This document shows positions 28,696-50,375 of a stretch of DNA of 50,491 nucleotides, one piece after another. The notes below the pieces were generated by a model. That model had not been told where the DNA came from and did not search any database. It worked only from the letters and a program-made list of their open reading frames with translations. The stretch covers positions 1 through 50,491 of the forward strand of contig JAMCVK010000027.1 in NCBI GenBank assembly GCA_023475225.1, read 5' to 3'. The stretch comes from Chloroflexota bacterium (GTDB lineage Bacteria; Chloroflexota; UBA6077; FW602-bin22; JAMCVK01). Position 1 is the first letter of the stretch, and each line of letters begins with the position of its first letter. Both the position numbers and the translations under genes were made by a program.

Positions 28696-29607
28696 TCAGT
28701 TATCGCCCAGCGCTTCCTGGAGACGATTCTCGAGGACCTGCCTCGGATCGAACCGTTCTAGCTGAAGATAATGTTTCGCTACCTGAACCAGAGCCTCGCC
28801 CGGAACCAGGCCGACAATTTCACTCTCCAGTATAGTCACCCCGTATTTGGCTGCCGCCACCTTGATGGCTTCGAAAGCCTGAAATAGCGGTGTCTCTCGA
28901 TAGTTGGTCATGTTCAGCGATACCTGCACGATGTTCCGGTCGGCTATGGGCAAACCGATGGCTTTAACGTAGGGCAACCCCCCGCTAGACTCCCGAACCG
29001 TTCGAGCGATGGCCTTGGCTATGCTGACATCGTCTGTGGCCAGGTTCACATTGAAGGCGATCAGGGGCAGGCGGACCCCGACGGCCGTCGCCCCCGCTCC
29101 GGTAACCCTGGATGGGCCGAAGTCGGGCTGTCGCGCCGGATTGGTGGCGATCTCCGCCTCCAGAGATTCAAACTCTCCCCGTCTGATGTCGGCCAGGTTG
29201 CGGCGCTCCGGTCGCGTCGCTGCCTCGCTATAGAGGTAGACCGGAATTTGCAGCTCTGCGCCGATACGGCGTCCCAACTGTCTGGCCAGGGGGACACATT
29301 CTTCCATGGTGACGCCGCTGAGAGGCACCAGTGGCACTACATCCGCTGCACCTATGCGTGGGTGCTGTCCGCGGTGTTGGTGAAGATCGATCAATTGCGC
29401 TGCCATCTTAACCGTTTGAAAAGCGGCCTCCAGGACTGGTTCAGGCTCGCCACAAAAGGTCAGCACAGCGCGGTTGTGGTCTGCATCCGTCTCCACATCC
29501 AACATATAGATGCCCGGCACATCTCGGATGGCTGAGACCACCTGCTCCACCACCTCTGGACGACGTCCCTCGCTGATGTTTGGCACACATTCGATAAGCC
29601 TGCGCAT
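28696..29607 (-). CDS. ftcD: Glutamate formimidoyltransferase
   Basis: Transfers the formimino group of N-formimino-L-glutamate to THF, giving glutamate and 5-formimino-THF. The 303-residue length equals the formiminotransferase N- and C-subdomains only. Motifs are ECVPNISEGRRPEVVE, the DHNRAVLTF segment, HPRIGAADVVPLVPL with its catalytic histidine, and GARAVGVR-like GATAVGVRLPLIAFNVNL. The start is at ATG 29607. With HutI upstream and FchA downstream it sets the route histidine to glutamate plus one-carbon units, not the formamide (HutG) route. Confidence 0.96.
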   Translation of the reverse strand: MRRLIECVPNISEGRRPEVVEQVVSAIRDVPGIYMLDVETDADHNRAVLTFCGEPEPVLEAAFQTVKMAAQLIDLHQHRGQHPRIGAADVVPLVPLSGVTMEECVPLARQLGRRIGAELQIPVYLYSEAATRPERRNLADIRRGEFESLEAEIATNPARQPDFGPSRVTGAGATAVGVRLPLIAFNVNLATDDVSIAKAIARTVRESSGGLPYVKAIGLPIADRNIVQVSLNMTNYRETPLFQAFEAIKVAAAKYGVTILESEIVGLVPGEALVQVAKHYLQLERFDPRQVLENRLQEALGDN

Positions 29608-29696: not shown

Positions 29697-31019
29697 CTAG
29701 ACAAATAACTGGGGTGGTCTCTCTAAGTCAGGCGCCAGCCGACTGTTTTGCACTACTACACGCCCCGCCTTTATGACTGTATCGACCTGGTTTATTCCCA
29801 GATGATAGGGCAAATGCTTATGGTTAGGGATATTTAGAATGATGATATCAGCCATCTTGCCCGGCTGTAGGCCACCTATCTTGTCGCCCTGCTCAAGAGC
29901 ACAGGCAGCGTTGAGGGTGCTGGCCACGATCGCCTGAGCTGGAGTAAGCTGCATGCCTACACAGGCAAGGGCTATAACCAGCGACATCGACTCGCTCATA
30001 TAGGTGCCTGGGTTTAGATCGGTAGCCAGAGCGACCGCCACCCCTTCGGCGATGAGCCTTCTGGCCGGCGCATAGGCGTGCCGCAGGGTGAAGGAGGTGC
30101 CGGGCAACAGGGTAGCCACGACATCACTGGTGGCCAGCAGCCGGGCATCCTCTTCTGTCAGGGCAGTCAGATGGTCAGCGGAGGCCGCTCCCATCTCCAC
30201 AGCCAAAGGGGTGGCGCCAATCGAGGCAAATTCATCAGCGTGGATTCTCACTCCTAGCCCGGACGCTTTGGCAGCCGCCAGGAGGCGACGGGATTGGTCG
30301 ACGTTGAATACCCCCTGTTCGCAGAAGACATCGCAGTAAACGGCCAGTCCCCCAGCAACCACAGCCGGCAGCGTCTCCATGATAAGGTGATCAATGTAGG
30401 CATCAGGCGCGCCATGAAATTCGGGAGGAACGGCGTGCGCTCCCAGGAAGGTGGGTACCAGGGTGATAGGATGATGTTGCGCAAGCTGGCGAATCACCTC
30501 CAACGATTTAATCTCATCCGCCGTATTCAGTCCGTAGCCACTCTTGGCTTCAGCTGTAGTGGTGCCGTGGAGAAGCATAGTGTTCAGCCTGTGCCAGGCC
30601 AGCCTGGCTAGCTCCTGAGGTTCGGCTGTTCTGGTAGCCCGCATCGTATTGAGGATGCCTCCCCCGGCGGCCAGAATCTGCTGATAATCCTCCCCAGCTA
30701 TGCGCCGCGCGAACTCGTCCTCTCGGGAGCCAGCGAAGACCAGATGCGTGTGGGGATCAACGAAGCCGGGCAAGACCACTTTTTGGGAGGCATTGATGAC
30801 TAGGGTGTCAGACGACGTCTCGAGATGGCCCATGATCTCCTCGCTGGGGCCTACCGCAGTGATGCGTCCTTGTCGAATAGCCAGAGCGCCCTGGGGGATG
30901 ATGCCCAGCTCGTCCATTTGCGCACCGCGTTTGGGGCCTGGTCCCCTGTGGCTGACAGTCACCAACTCAGCAGCATTATAGATCACAATCTCCACAGGCT
31001 GCCTTTCGCTCTTATCCAC
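29697..31019 (-). CDS. hutI: Imidazolonepropionase
   Basis: A 440-residue amidohydrolase that opens 4-imidazolone-5-propionate to N-formimino-L-glutamate. The metal-site PGFVDPHTHLVFAGSREDEFARR is followed by LAAGGGILNTMRATR, TTAEAKSGYGL, the later histidines (RIHADEF, SADHL) and the catalytic aspartate in ATDLNPGT. I chose GTG at 31019, seven bases after AGGAG. The TTG at 31025 sits only one base from that element. Confidence 0.96.
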   Translation of the reverse strand: MDKSERQPVEIVIYNAAELVTVSHRGPGPKRGAQMDELGIIPQGALAIRQGRITAVGPSEEIMGHLETSSDTLVINASQKVVLPGFVDPHTHLVFAGSREDEFARRIAGEDYQQILAAGGGILNTMRATRTAEPQELARLAWHRLNTMLLHGTTTAEAKSGYGLNTADEIKSLEVIRQLAQHHPITLVPTFLGAHAVPPEFHGAPDAYIDHLIMETLPAVVAGGLAVYCDVFCEQGVFNVDQSRRLLAAAKASGLGVRIHADEFASIGATPLAVEMGAASADHLTALTEEDARLLATSDVVATLLPGTSFTLRHAYAPARRLIAEGVAVALATDLNPGTYMSESMSLVIALACVGMQLTPAQAIVASTLNAACALEQGDKIGGLQPGKMADIIILNIPNHKHLPYHLGINQVDTVIKAGRVVVQNSRLAPDLERPPQLFV

Positions 31020-31051
31020 GGTCAATCTCCTGGATCCCTGGGGGATCTAAG

Positions 31052-37837: not shown

Positions 37838-39493
37838 CTACTTCAACATCGGGATCTTGAGTCCATGTCGCTTGGCCATGGCCGCAGCCTCTTCATAACC
37901 GGCGTCGACGTGGCGCATAATGCCGATCCCCGGGTCAGTGGTGAGCACTCGCTCCAGGCGACGGGCGGCCTCGGGGGTGCCATCAGCGACAATGACCTGT
38001 CCGGCGTGAATGGAATAGCCTATGCCTACCCCTCCTCCGTGGTGAATGGACACCCAGGTAGCACCACCAACGGCGTTGATCAGGGCATTGAGGAGTGGCC
38101 AGTCGGCGATGGCGTCGCTGCCATCCTTCATGCCCTCCGTCTCACGATTAGGTGAGGCTACTGAGCCGCAGTCAAGGTGATCTCGTCCGATGACGATTGG
38201 TGCTGAAATCTCGCCCCGACTTACCAGCTCGTTTATGGCCAGACCGAAGCGGGCCCGTTCCCCGTAGCCCAACCAGCAAATACGAGCGGGCAAACCCTGG
38301 AAGGGCACCTTCTGTTGGGCCAACTTAATCCAGCGCACCAGATGCTCATCATAGGCGAATTCACGCATCACCATCTCATCGGTCTTGTAGATGTCCTTGG
38401 GATCACCGGAGAGAGCTACCCAACGGAAGGGTCCTTTGCCCTCGCAGAAGAGTGGCCGTATGTAAGCCGGCACAAAGCCAGGATAGGAGAAGGCCTCCTT
38501 GACACCAGCCTGATAGCCCCGCTGCCTTAGGTTATTGCCGTAGTCAAAAACGATGGAACCCTTAGCCTTCATCTCCAGCATCGCCTGAACGTGGACGCCC
38601 ATAGAGGCGATGGCCAATTGACTGTGGCGGGCAGGATCGCTCTTCCACATCTTCTCCGACTCAGCCACGCTCAGTCCAGCTGGGACGTAGCTTAATGGAT
38701 CGTGCGCTGGCGTCTGATCGGTAACGACATCGGGTATGATGTCCCGTCGTACCAGCTCCGGGTAGACTTCAGCGGCGTTGCCTAGCATCCCGATGGAAAG
38801 GGCCTCACCGCGCTCCTTGGCCGCCAGACCCTTCTCCAGAGCCTCGTCCAGACTGGTCGTCCAGGTATCAAGGTACTTCATCCCCAGGCGACGACGGATA
38901 CGGCGCTCATCGACCTCCACGATGAGGCCTACTCCCTCGTTCATAGTTATGGCCATGGGCTGGGCTCCCCCCATTCCTCCCAGACCAGCCGTCAGCACCA
39001 GTTTGCCCTTCAGGCTACCCCCAAAGTGTCTCTGTCCAACGGCGCTTAGGGTCTCATACGTCCCCTGGAGAATGCCCTGAGTACCGATGTAGATCCAGCT
39101 ACCGGCCGTCATTTGGCCGTACATCGTAAGCCCTAGACGATCCAGTTCGTCGAATATCTCCTGTGTTGCCCAAGCCGGCACCAAATTGGCGTTGGCAATC
39201 AAGACTCGGGGCGCATCTGCATGGGTGCGGAAGACGCCGACCGGCTTACCTGATTGAACCAGCAGGGTCTCATAGTTCTCCAGCTCCCGTAGAGCAGCTA
39301 CTATAGCGTCAAAACATTTCCAGTTGCGGGCCGCTTTACCTCGACCCCCGTAGACGATCAGCTCAGCCGGTCGCTCGGCCACCTCTGGGTCCAGGTTATT
39401 CATCAACATGCGCAAAGCAGCTTCCTGTTGCCAGCCGCGGCAGGAGATGGTTGTGCCGCGGGGGGCACGAATGATGCGTGCAGTCTCAATCAT
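37838..39493 (-). CDS. hutU: Urocanate hydratase
   Basis: Converts urocanate to 4-imidazolone-5-propionate using tightly bound NAD. The 551-residue protein has [34 protein letters not shown], the NAD-binding [22 protein letters not shown] and HDHLDCGS-like [17 protein letters not shown], and [15 protein letters not shown]. The ATG at 39493 has GGAGGA upstream. The 192-base gap before it holds an AGAGAG/CTCTCT hairpin candidate and no gene. It sits between the second ABC transporter set and the M20 gene, far from hutH. Confidence 0.97.
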
Positions 39494-39685
39494 GGCGTTC
39501 CTCCTTACCGAAACCTTTCTCTGATTCAGCCAGAGCATTACCACCTTGCCTCATATCCCCTCTAAGACCCTACGACCTGAAAAACCGTCCCTAGAGAGAA
39601 GTGGCTCATTCCTCTCTCCTAATATTAACATAAAAATCCCAAGGGGCGAGGAGAATCGCAAGCAGTGCCTGGCCTTGGACTAGGC

Positions 39686-47507: not shown

Positions 47508-47706
47508 ACCCCCTGACCCCCTCTCCCGTCCTTCCCGTCCGGGAGAGGGGGGATCGAGGCTAGGGCGGAGCCCTAGAACCCTCCCAGAAGGGGATGACCC
47601 CCTTCTGGACTACCCCCGTCTGAGAGGTGATTGAGGGCTAGGGCGGAGCCCTATCCTTCTTCGAAGGACTCCCAGAAGAGGGCAACCCCCTTCTGGACTA
47701 CCCCCC
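47508..47706. repeat. Mosaic palindromic intergenic repeat (copy C, two tandem units)
   Basis: Contains a perfect 12-bp hairpin with CCCCCTCTCCCG/CGGGAGAGGGGG arms, then two units of about 60-73 bases (47557-47616 and 47634-47706), each with a CTAGGGC-GGA-GCCCTA hairpin and ending in CCCCCTTCTGGACTACCCCC. It fills most of the 291 bases between flavoprotein 1 and hutH; no gene is present there. Confidence 0.75.
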
Positions 47707-47757: not shown

Positions 47758-49335
47758 CTAAATCAGAGTGACCACCTCCGCCGCCCTCTCCACCAGCTCC
47801 CCCGAGCGTACCAGGTTGAAGATCTGCTCGATATCAGGGGCGAGGATACGATCCTCCGTCAATGGAGCCACCTTGCTCCGGATAAGGTCGTAGGCTACCG
47901 CCACTCCCCGTCCAAGATGGCCTGGCTGACGAAGGTCCAAGGCCTGCGCCGCGGCCAGCAGCTCGATGGCTACCACATACTGCGTGTTGGTGAGTATATC
48001 CCACCCTTTGCGTGCGGCGATTGTCCCCATGCTCACGTGATCTTCCTGTCCGGCCGAGGTGGGAATGGAATCGACGCTGGCCGGGGAAGCCAGTATCTTA
48101 TTCTCAGAGACGAGCGCTGCTGCTGTATATTGGGTGAGCATCAGCCCCGAATTGAGTCCGCTGTTTCGTGTCAGGAAGGTTGGTAATTCATTAAAGACGG
48201 GATTCAGTAGTTTGTCAAGCCTTCGCTCCGATATGCTGGCGATCTCAGCGAGAGCGATACCCAAAAGATCCAGGGCCATGGCCACTGGCTCACCATGGAA
48301 GTTCCCCCCGGATATGACCAGGCCGTCGCTCGGAAAAAGGAGGGGGTTATCTGTCGCCGAATTCATCTCCGTGGTTAGAATACCTTTGACGAAGGCGATA
48401 GCTTCTCTGGATGCCCCATGCACCTGAGGGATGCAGCGCAAACTGTAGGGATCTTGGACCCTATTTGTGTTGGGCATCCTGTAGAGATCGCTATCCTCTA
48501 GTAGTGAGCGCAGGTTGAAGGCACACTGTGCCTGACCCTGGTGGGGGCGAAGGGAGTGAATTCTACTGTCGAAAGCGATAGGATCCGCTCTAAGGGCTTC
48601 ACTGGTCATAGCTGCGGCGATGTCGGCTGTTTTAAGCAAATATTCCCCATCGTGTGCGGTCAGTATGCCCAGAGCGGTCATCACCTGCGTCCCATTGATC
48701 AAGGCTAGCCCCTCTTTTGGGCCCAGTTGCACGGGGGCGATGCCGCACCTCTCCAAGGCCTCACGCCCCTTCAAGTGTTGTCCTCGATAGATGGCTTCGC
48801 CCTCGCCCAGCATCACCAGAACCATATGGGACAATGGAGCCAAGTCGCCACTTGCCCCGACCGACCCCTTCGCCGGAATAAGAGGATGAACCCCCGCATT
48901 CAACATCGCTATCAGGGTCGAAATGACCTCAGGGCTGACGCCTGAGTGCCCCTTAGCTAGGGCATTAGCGCGCAGCAGCATGATAGCCCTCACCACCACC
49001 TCCTCGAGGGCCGGTCCAACACCAGCGGAGTGACTCAAGATAAGGTTTCTTTGTAGTGTACGGGCATCCTTGGCTGAGATGGGAACATTACACAGATGAC
49101 CGAAGCCGGTGGTAACGCCGTATACGGTGGATTGTTGTTCTACCAGCCTTTGAACCATCTCATAGGACTCTAGCACGCCTCGCCGGGCATCTGAAGATAG
49201 AGCCACCTTCTTGTCATAGCGGGCAACAGCGATAACATCCTTGATGGTTAGGGATTGTCCATCCAGCACTATTTCTGGCTCGAAGCCGACCTTCTGCGCG
49301 GTTCGGCCGGGGGCTGCCTCACTGCTGCCAGCCAT
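47758..49335 (-). CDS. hutH: Histidine ammonia-lyase
   Basis: Removes ammonia from L-histidine to give trans-urocanate. The 525-residue protein (counted from the ATG) has the catalytic tyrosine in VYGVTTGFG (about residue 72), the self-cyclising MIO triad Ala161-Ser162-Gly163 in GASGDLAPLSH, and NGTQVMTALGIL, QDPYSLRCIPQVHGA and SAGQEDHVSMGT. The ATG at 49335 has GAGGAG upstream. An in-frame GTG at 49377 also has AGAGGAG five bases upstream and would give 14 more residues. Both lie downstream of the terminator at 49396-49436. Expression is probably controlled by HutP-dependent antitermination. Confidence 0.97.
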   Translation of the reverse strand: MAGSSEAAPGRTAQKVGFEPEIVLDGQSLTIKDVIAVARYDKKVALSSDARRGVLESYEMVQRLVEQQSTVYGVTTGFGHLCNVPISAKDARTLQRNLILSHSAGVGPALEEVVVRAIMLLRANALAKGHSGVSPEVISTLIAMLNAGVHPLIPAKGSVGASGDLAPLSHMVLVMLGEGEAIYRGQHLKGREALERCGIAPVQLGPKEGLALINGTQVMTALGILTAHDGEYLLKTADIAAAMTSEALRADPIAFDSRIHSLRPHQGQAQCAFNLRSLLEDSDLYRMPNTNRVQDPYSLRCIPQVHGASREAIAFVKGILTTEMNSATDNPLLFPSDGLVISGGNFHGEPVAMALDLLGIALAEIASISERRLDKLLNPVFNELPTFLTRNSGLNSGLMLTQYTAAALVSENKILASPASVDSIPTSAGQEDHVSMGTIAARKGWDILTNTQYVVAIELLAAAQALDLRQPGHLGRGVAVAYDLIRSKVAPLTEDRILAPDIEQIFNLVRSGELVERAAEVVTLI

Positions 49336-49395
49336 CTCGATTCTCCTCTTATCGGGCTTCCCGATGGTCTTCTTCACCTGATCTCCTCTAAACAG

Positions 49396-49436
49396 AAAAA
49401 GGGCAGGTCTCAAGCCCAATGGCTTGGACGCTGCCC
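49396..49436 (-). terminator. Intrinsic terminator/attenuator upstream of hutH
   Basis: On the minus strand a hairpin with GGGCAG, GTC and CAAGCC paired to GGCTTG, GAC and CTGCCC (15 pairs with two single-base bulges, loop ATTG) is followed directly by TTTTT. It lies between hutP and hutH, just before both candidate hutH start sites, so read-through is required for hutH expression. Confidence 0.85.
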
Positions 49437-49454
49437 CCTTGCGACTTTCGACTT
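49431..49454 (-). promoter_or_regulatory. HutP RNA-binding site: four NAG triplets at 7-nt spacing
   Basis: Reading the minus strand: AAG (49454-49452), TCGA, AAG (49447-49445), TCGC, AAG (49440-49438), GGGG, CAG (49433-49431). NAG triplets separated by exactly four bases are the known recognition pattern of the HutP hexamer, and the last triplet lies in the 5' arm of the terminator, so binding would prevent folding. Confidence 0.75.
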
Positions 49455-49559
49455 TGGGCGGCGTCAAATTGCAATTTGCGCCTTGACCCACTGGCCAGGA
49501 TGGGGTTGGCTACCGTCTTTCCGCTATGCTGTCACAGGCGAGAGGTTCCTCCTGCCAGT

Positions 49560-50093
49560 TCAGAAGTGGTTGATACCCAGACCGATTACCTCGTGTTCCC
49601 AGCCCTTAACTGGTGCCCCAATGCTGCCATAGAGGCAGAGGGCAATCCACTCACGATCGTTGGCGTCGCCCCTGGTTCTAGGTCCTCGCAGGATGGCGAA
49701 AGATAAGCCGACCGTGCGGAGCAGGTTGCCCAGGGCGAAGGGCCCCCGATAGACCCCATGGAGAGCTTCCAGAATCACATGGTAGAGCGCATGCTCATCG
49801 CCATAGACGCCATGGACGATACCTTCACGCCTGGCCGCAGTCTCTATGGCGGCCACAATCTTCTGCGTATCCATCGACCCTATTTGTCCCTTGCAGACGA
49901 GGAACCCGCTCTCCCTGGCCGCCTCAGTCAGGGGCTGTTCCAGGTCTGTTCCAATGGCCATAGTGACCATAATAGCCGCCTTACCGATGCGGTCCATAGT
50001 AAGCAGACCCGTCTTCGCCTCGGGTGAGGCAACCGCCGCTACATCTGCGGCATTAGGTAATGGCCACTCGTTCAAGAACATCACCCCAACCAT
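49560..50093 (-). CDS. hutP: HutP, histidine-responsive antiterminator
   Basis: RNA-binding protein that, in Bacillus, forms a hexamer and with L-histidine and Mg2+ binds NAG-rich RNA to disrupt the terminator ahead of the hut structural genes. The C-terminal ~115 residues resemble B. subtilis HutP very closely: GSMDTQKIVAAIETA, HALYHVILEALHGV (H101, H105), LLRTVGLSFAILRG and SLYGTIGAP-like CLYGSIGAPVKGWEHEVIGLGINH (H167). These histidines match the metal/histidine ligands of the Bacillus protein. At 177 residues it is about 25-30 longer at the N terminus. ATG 50093 was chosen for AAGGGTGG upstream, but the promoter would start transcription near 50103, close to or inside that site, so the ATG at 49997 is an alternative. 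Confidence 0.93.
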   Translation of the reverse strand: MVGVMFLNEWPLPNAADVAAVASPEAKTGLLTMDRIGKAAIMVTMAIGTDLEQPLTEAARESGFLVCKGQIGSMDTQKIVAAIETAARREGIVHGVYGDEHALYHVILEALHGVYRGPFALGNLLRTVGLSFAILRGPRTRGDANDREWIALCLYGSIGAPVKGWEHEVIGLGINHF

Positions 50094-50109
50094 GACTGGA
50101 ACCACCCTT

Positions 50110-50138
50110 AATATAACACAGCCCGAACAGCATGTCAA
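50110..50138 (-). promoter_or_regulatory. Sigma-70-type promoter of hutP/hut region
   Basis: TTGACA (50138-50133) and TATATT (50115-50110) on the minus strand with an exact 17-base spacer. It is the best promoter match in the window and lies between repeat copy D and hutP. Confidence 0.82.
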
Positions 50139-50159: not shown

Positions 50160-50375
50160 CGAACAACGGGGGTTCCAAGGGGGCGTCCTTCTTCGAAGGA
50201 CTGGGATGGCCTGGGGACACAGCCTCTCTTTCCCCTTCTCCCGCTGGAGTAAGGGGGGTGGGGGATAAGGGCATCTCCCCCAAGCGGGGGACAAGCCCTC
50301 GCGCTACGTCTTTATTCCCCCTCTCCCGCTGGAGCAAGGGGGAGGTCAAGGAGGGGGGCGCAGCCCTCAGGAGTG
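50160..50375. repeat. Mosaic palindromic intergenic repeat (copy D)
   Basis: Shares TCCTTCTTCGAAGGACT with copy C (near 47655), and the CCCTTCTCCCG and GGGGGATAAGGGC-TCCCCCAA phrases with copy B. It contains two CCTCTCCCGCTGGAG-type blocks and GGGCGCAGCCCT. With the promoter and the edge fragment it accounts for the 398 bases upstream of hutP. Confidence 0.65.

Follow-up and report, generated by a model that had tools for sequence, protein, structure and literature searches.

Does a bacterium of the phylum Chloroflexota switch on its histidine ammonia-lyase gene through HutP, and if so, what RNA would the protein hold? The question is raised by contig JAMCVK010000027.1 of a Chloroflexota genome (the window, i.e. 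the whole 50,491-nucleotide stretch analysed here), where sequence inspection reveals, in this order on the minus strand, a promoter, hutP, a phased NAG array, a terminator and hutH. A first-pass annotation had read hutP, array, terminator and hutH as a single HutP antitermination module, and every part proved to lie where it had been placed. We conclude that this genome very probably carries a complete HutP antitermination switch in control of hutH, a reading derived from sequence comparison. The component missing from the earlier reading is a covarying antiterminator hairpin.

The hut locus and its HutP protein

The module begins with a sigma-70-type promoter predicted from consensus alone (50110–50138, minus strand, as are all features below), and the TTGACA-17-TATATT boxes named earlier were borne out, with 11 of 12 consensus matches and an extended −10 (TG). 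It is followed by hutP (49560–50081), encoding the histidine-responsive RNA-binding antiterminator protein, and by hutH, histidine ammonia-lyase (47758–49377; GTG start at 49377, stop at 47758; TIGR01225, 695 bits against a cut-off of 539), which has its own ribosome site, AGAGGAG, at 49389–49383. Urocanate hydratase (hutU, 37838–39544; TIGR01228, 942 bits) lies in the same cluster and on the same strand as hutH, as part of a long same-strand cluster (24274–49377) that also contains imidazolonepropionase (hutI, 29697–31025; TIGR01224, 467 bits), glutamate formimidoyltransferase (ftcD, 28696–29607; TIGR02024, 413 bits), formate-tetrahydrofolate ligase, an oligopeptide-type (Opp-type) ABC transporter and two fumarate-reductase-like flavoproteins. 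The cluster looks like a histidine-to-folate catabolic island.

The HutP assignment is secure at the level of profiles, scoring 95.9 bits on PF09021 (cut-off 25) and 177.3 bits on the NCBIfam equivalog NF002838 (cut-off 155), and the protein is ~50% identical to solved HutP structures, with PDB HutP chains matched at an E-value of about 1e-41. The GSMD, HALYH and EHE motifs reported from the sequence are all retained, and alignment to the PDB chains shows that the B. subtilis residues H73, H77, R88, H138, E55, T56, T99 and E137, which we take to be the histidine/Mg2+ and RNA contacts in HutP structures, are kept. Translation could start at ATG 50093, 50081 or 49997; the protein is 173 aa long from ATG 50081 and about 145 aa, the normal length for the family, from ATG 49997, so an N-terminal extension is only putative, as it depends on the start codon chosen. 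A second HutP-family protein occurs in three of four HutP-bearing Bacillota genomes (L122, L123, L124), scoring ~160 bits on PF09021 compared with ~100 for canonical HutP.

Three phased NAG triplets, not four

The array at 49454–49431 reads AAG-TCGA-AAG-TCGC-AAG-GGGG-CAG. The four-triplet pattern alone is not rare, being expected 1.95 times per 50 kb, and four phased triplets were reached in 42 of 5000 shuffles of the hutP-hutH gap. Three phased triplets flanked by 4 bp or more of in-register pairing arose in 0.3% of gap shuffles, and 9 of 10 stem pairs in none of 3000. Phased triplets recur in related gaps, so that unconserved NAG spacing, named beforehand as grounds for refutation, was not borne out: among 42 Bacillota hutP-hutH gaps, 26 contained three or more NAGs in phase (2.5 expected), and six contained four or more (0.24 expected).

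The first-pass annotation had also counted four triplets where the known system has three, and this contrast did not hold, as the fourth (CAG) lies in a stem and in-phase fourth NAGs in Bacillota fall in stem arms too. CAG was accordingly rejected as a fourth binding site, and the conserved unit is three triplets. Two clusters of three NAGs, about 20 nt apart, have been described for B. subtilis (PMC7430163); in the window, no second phased cluster was found at about that distance from the first. A three-triplet array further upstream, TAGcggaAAGacggTAG (49510–49526), lies 56 nt away, lacks an in-register stem and was discarded as a second HutP site, since at least one such array occurred in 12.5% of gap shuffles. 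Most of the 42 Bacillota gaps possess a single array, and the two-cluster layout therefore seems not to be general to the hut module.

A covarying antiterminator hairpin

In Bacillota relatives the triplets sit in the loop of a hairpin with a constant layout: stem, A, NAG-N4-NAG-N4-NAG, purine, stem, the loop measuring 19 nt. Examples are AACCC-A-TAGtaatTAGtcatTAG-A-GGGTT in L046, CTACTC-A-AAGtcatGAGccatGAG-G-GAGTAG in L038 and the AGCAC...GTGCT stem in L053. We picked 41 arrays by their NAGs alone, taking the best-pairing among overlapping triples and treating all registers alike; 26 of them had 4 or more stem base pairs in the conserved register, compared with 0–3 arrays in every slid register. 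Across 36 sequences, window included, two-sided changes were found at all six stem pairs, and the covariation score was 0.354, against at most 0.185 in slid registers and 0.185 ± 0.025 in shuffles.

The corresponding element of the window (49427–49465) is GACGCcGCCC-A-AAGtcgaAAGtcgcAAG-G-GGGCaGCGTC, with 9 of 10 stem positions paired and one C-A mismatch, and its loop presents the putative HutP target, AAG TCGA AAG TCGC AAG (49438–49454), as three NAG triplets with N4 spacers. A covariance model, R1, trained on 26 Bacillota sequences without the window, returned this element (49461–49431, minus strand; 25.3 bits, E = 2e-4) as its sole match in the window at E-values up to 10. It was also the top R1 match in the whole 2.74 Mb genome, in which no other good R1 target was found, the next two matches (20.6 and 18.6 bits) having chance-sized E-values. 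In Bacillota loci the model detected 91 elements, some of which were in its training set, the independent ones including, for genomes with hutP behind hutH, nearly all those that precede hutH. The 3′ arm is common to a terminator in 85 of the 91, and 73 of them precede hutH. Neither the window stretch nor the hut gaps of six relatives matched any Rfam family. The window element has the register, the 19-nt loop and the terminator-shared 3′ arm of the Bacillota hut antiterminator hairpin, and on this comparison it is a predicted antiterminator in the register conserved in that phylum.

Folding of the leader and a proposed mechanism

The terminator previously placed between the NAG array and hutH was upheld by folding: it is intrinsic, GGGCAG..CTGCCC-TTTTT (49396–49436), its 5′ arm is the 3′ arm of the antiterminator, and the leader has a minimum free energy (MFE) of −34 kcal/mol (z −3.0). 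When the full leader was folded, the terminator structure reached −35.0 kcal/mol versus −28.1 kcal/mol with the antiterminator enforced. In growing prefixes the antiterminator was the MFE fold at 56–76 nt of leader and the terminator from 80 nt onwards. The antiterminator would thus fold first whilst the terminator is the more stable, and the former would have to be held if it is to win. In B. subtilis, histidine-charged HutP binds NAG triplets, which makes it the obvious clamp.

We propose that the antiterminator hairpin would be the first structure to form once RNA polymerase has passed hutP. Without histidine, the more stable terminator would overtake it and transcription would stop before hutH; with histidine and Mg2+, a HutP hexamer would bind the three NAGs of the loop and keep the antiterminator closed, allowing transcription to proceed into hutH.

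Host, rarity and origin of the module

The suspicion that the host belongs to Chloroflexota was correct, and the contig is part of that host's genome (2.74 Mb in 50 contigs, contamination estimate 3.4%). The sampled phylum-mates include closed genomes of 1.4–1.7 Mb that encode 21–28 reductive dehalogenases, a trait typical of Dehalococcoides and Dehalogenimonas. An intergenic repeat just after hutH (47560–47690) is matched 59 times across the other contigs of the genome, and the formate-tetrahydrofolate ligase on the window contig is 83% identical to that of phylum-mates and 70–80% identical to that of several same-order genomes; owing to these dispersed repeats and the 83% identity, we consider the contig native. 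Sequence resembling the repeat also occurs upstream of hutP, at 50160–50350.

A riboregulatory unit conserved within Chloroflexota, as had been envisaged, was not recovered. Of the phylum's 400 sampled genomes, one contained HutP, as did one of 61 relatives and one of 29 members of the class. HutP is thus an isolated occurrence in Chloroflexota, not a phylum-wide unit; HutH is common in the phylum (109 of 201 genomes). The best 80 of 430 matched HutP homologues in the genome collection were from Bacillota, bar two records that bear the names Desulfovibrio sp. and Pseudomonas sp. (L047, L055). These are probably misnamed or contaminated, because L047 has a HutH and a HutP that both cluster within Bacillota and the L055 element is that of Cytobacillus. 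No HutP relatives were found in viral contigs, and among the papers searched none named HutP and Chloroflexi together.

In the protein trees, the window HutP falls on a long branch inside an anaerobic-Bacillota clade (SH-aLRT 97), and HutH groups with Bacillota (SH-aLRT 94). Despite this placement, an approximately unbiased (AU) test did not reject a Chloroflexota grouping of HutH (p = 0.297), and transfer of hutH together with hutP was not accepted as proven. From the rarity of HutP in the phylum and its place in the tree, we infer that the module was probably acquired long ago from anaerobic Bacillota through horizontal transfer.

Alternative explanations

HutP might instead bind single-stranded NAGs and the terminator region directly, leaving the antiterminator stem incidental. 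HutP-RNA crystals reportedly used short single strands, which counts in favour of direct binding. Reviews, moreover, have HutP on terminator sequence repeats (PMC8934654) or on two three-NAG clusters (PMC7430163). Against this, covariation in many Bacillota ties the stem to a single exact register and the window element has retained it at nearly all positions, and we regard direct binding with an incidental stem as unlikely.

Two further explanations concern the locus itself. The transferred genes could be a relic whose regulation is defunct in the new host, as might be suspected from a single occurrence in the sampled phylum, a mismatched stem pair and a genome without another good target; yet on long branches every component survives undamaged, from protein, loop and register to terminator, promoter and hutH, and selection would therefore have been needed to keep them, making a relic improbable. 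That the contig is a Bacillota sequence misbinned into a Chloroflexota genome would account for a HutP that is otherwise confined to Bacillota here (among the best 80 of 430 homologues), and the contamination estimate leaves some room for it, but the contig shares dispersed repeats with the rest of the genome and has a gene with 83% identity to phylum-mates, so that contamination is nearly refuted and has only the slightest probability. A working, acquired HutP switch remains the preferred reading.

Wider HutP regulons in Bacillota

R1 matches with terminators also occur away from hutH. In Sporomusa-like Bacillota they precede amino-acid permeases (L040:4255, L063:2340, L049:2000), and further matches with terminators are located at L019:4744, L039:4758 and L028:4767, those in L019 and L039 before arginase-family (perhaps HutG) genes. 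The position of elements before permease and arginase-family genes suggests that HutP may govern multi-operon regulons in these bacteria. Syntrophaceticus-like genomes contain tandem antiterminator-terminator elements ~100 nt apart before hutH (L025:2220 and 2318; L030:6128 and 6248; L033:5930 and 6038; L035:7485 and 7571). In Syntrophomonadaceae the order is element-hutH-hutP (L006–L009, L011, L013, L015, L017, L018, L020 and similar), an arrangement in which HutP would activate its own expression.

We give roughly even chances to a broader proposition: that HutP does more than coat the terminator, that in general it recognises a compact antiterminator hairpin which covaries and has a NAG loop fixed at 19 nt, and that the whole switch moved into Chloroflexota. 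Such hairpins would form an RNA family that Rfam lacks, serving several Bacillota operons, namely those of hutH, hutU, hutP itself and genes for amino-acid permeases, arginase-family proteins and transporters, at times as tandem copies. The Chloroflexota module brings a textbook protein-dependent RNA switch into a further phylum, in the form of a transferable unit that is still intact. Comparing about 80 relatives also defines an RNA structure for HutP targets that is clear and open to testing, and the covariance model can find HutP regulons beyond B. subtilis, the one studied species.

Comparison with known systems

HutP has been reviewed as binding sequence repeats of the terminator (PMC8934654) or two three-NAG clusters (PMC7430163). 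The comparative definition of the hut antiterminator RNA may or may not be new. Oda et al. in 2004 spoke, in their title, of a ‘hut antiterminator RNA’ of B. subtilis, and with such an RNA already named, the newness of the hairpin is uncertain.

The closest described system is HutP and the hut mRNA of B. subtilis, which, like the window, has hutP first, followed by N4-spaced NAG triplets, a terminator and hutH; the window protein is ~50% identical to B. subtilis HutP and keeps its known ligand and RNA contact residues. The window differs in belonging to another phylum, in having no second clear three-NAG cluster in the terminator, and in the cluster that follows downstream, which includes genes for an Opp-type transporter, ftcD and formate-tetrahydrofolate ligase. 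In anaerobic Bacillota (Dethiobacter-like, Peptococcaceae, Sporomusa, Syntrophaceticus) the elements agree with that of the window in the register of the hairpin, the make-up of the loop and the overlap with the terminator, whilst many of these bacteria have several elements or the order element-hutH-hutP, whereas the Chloroflexota genome has one element, after hutP. More distantly, the ribonucleic antiterminator of BglG/LicT/SacY resembles the HutP system in that a protein-stabilised RNA hairpin excludes an overlapping terminator, although the protein, the ligand and the RNA recognition are unrelated.
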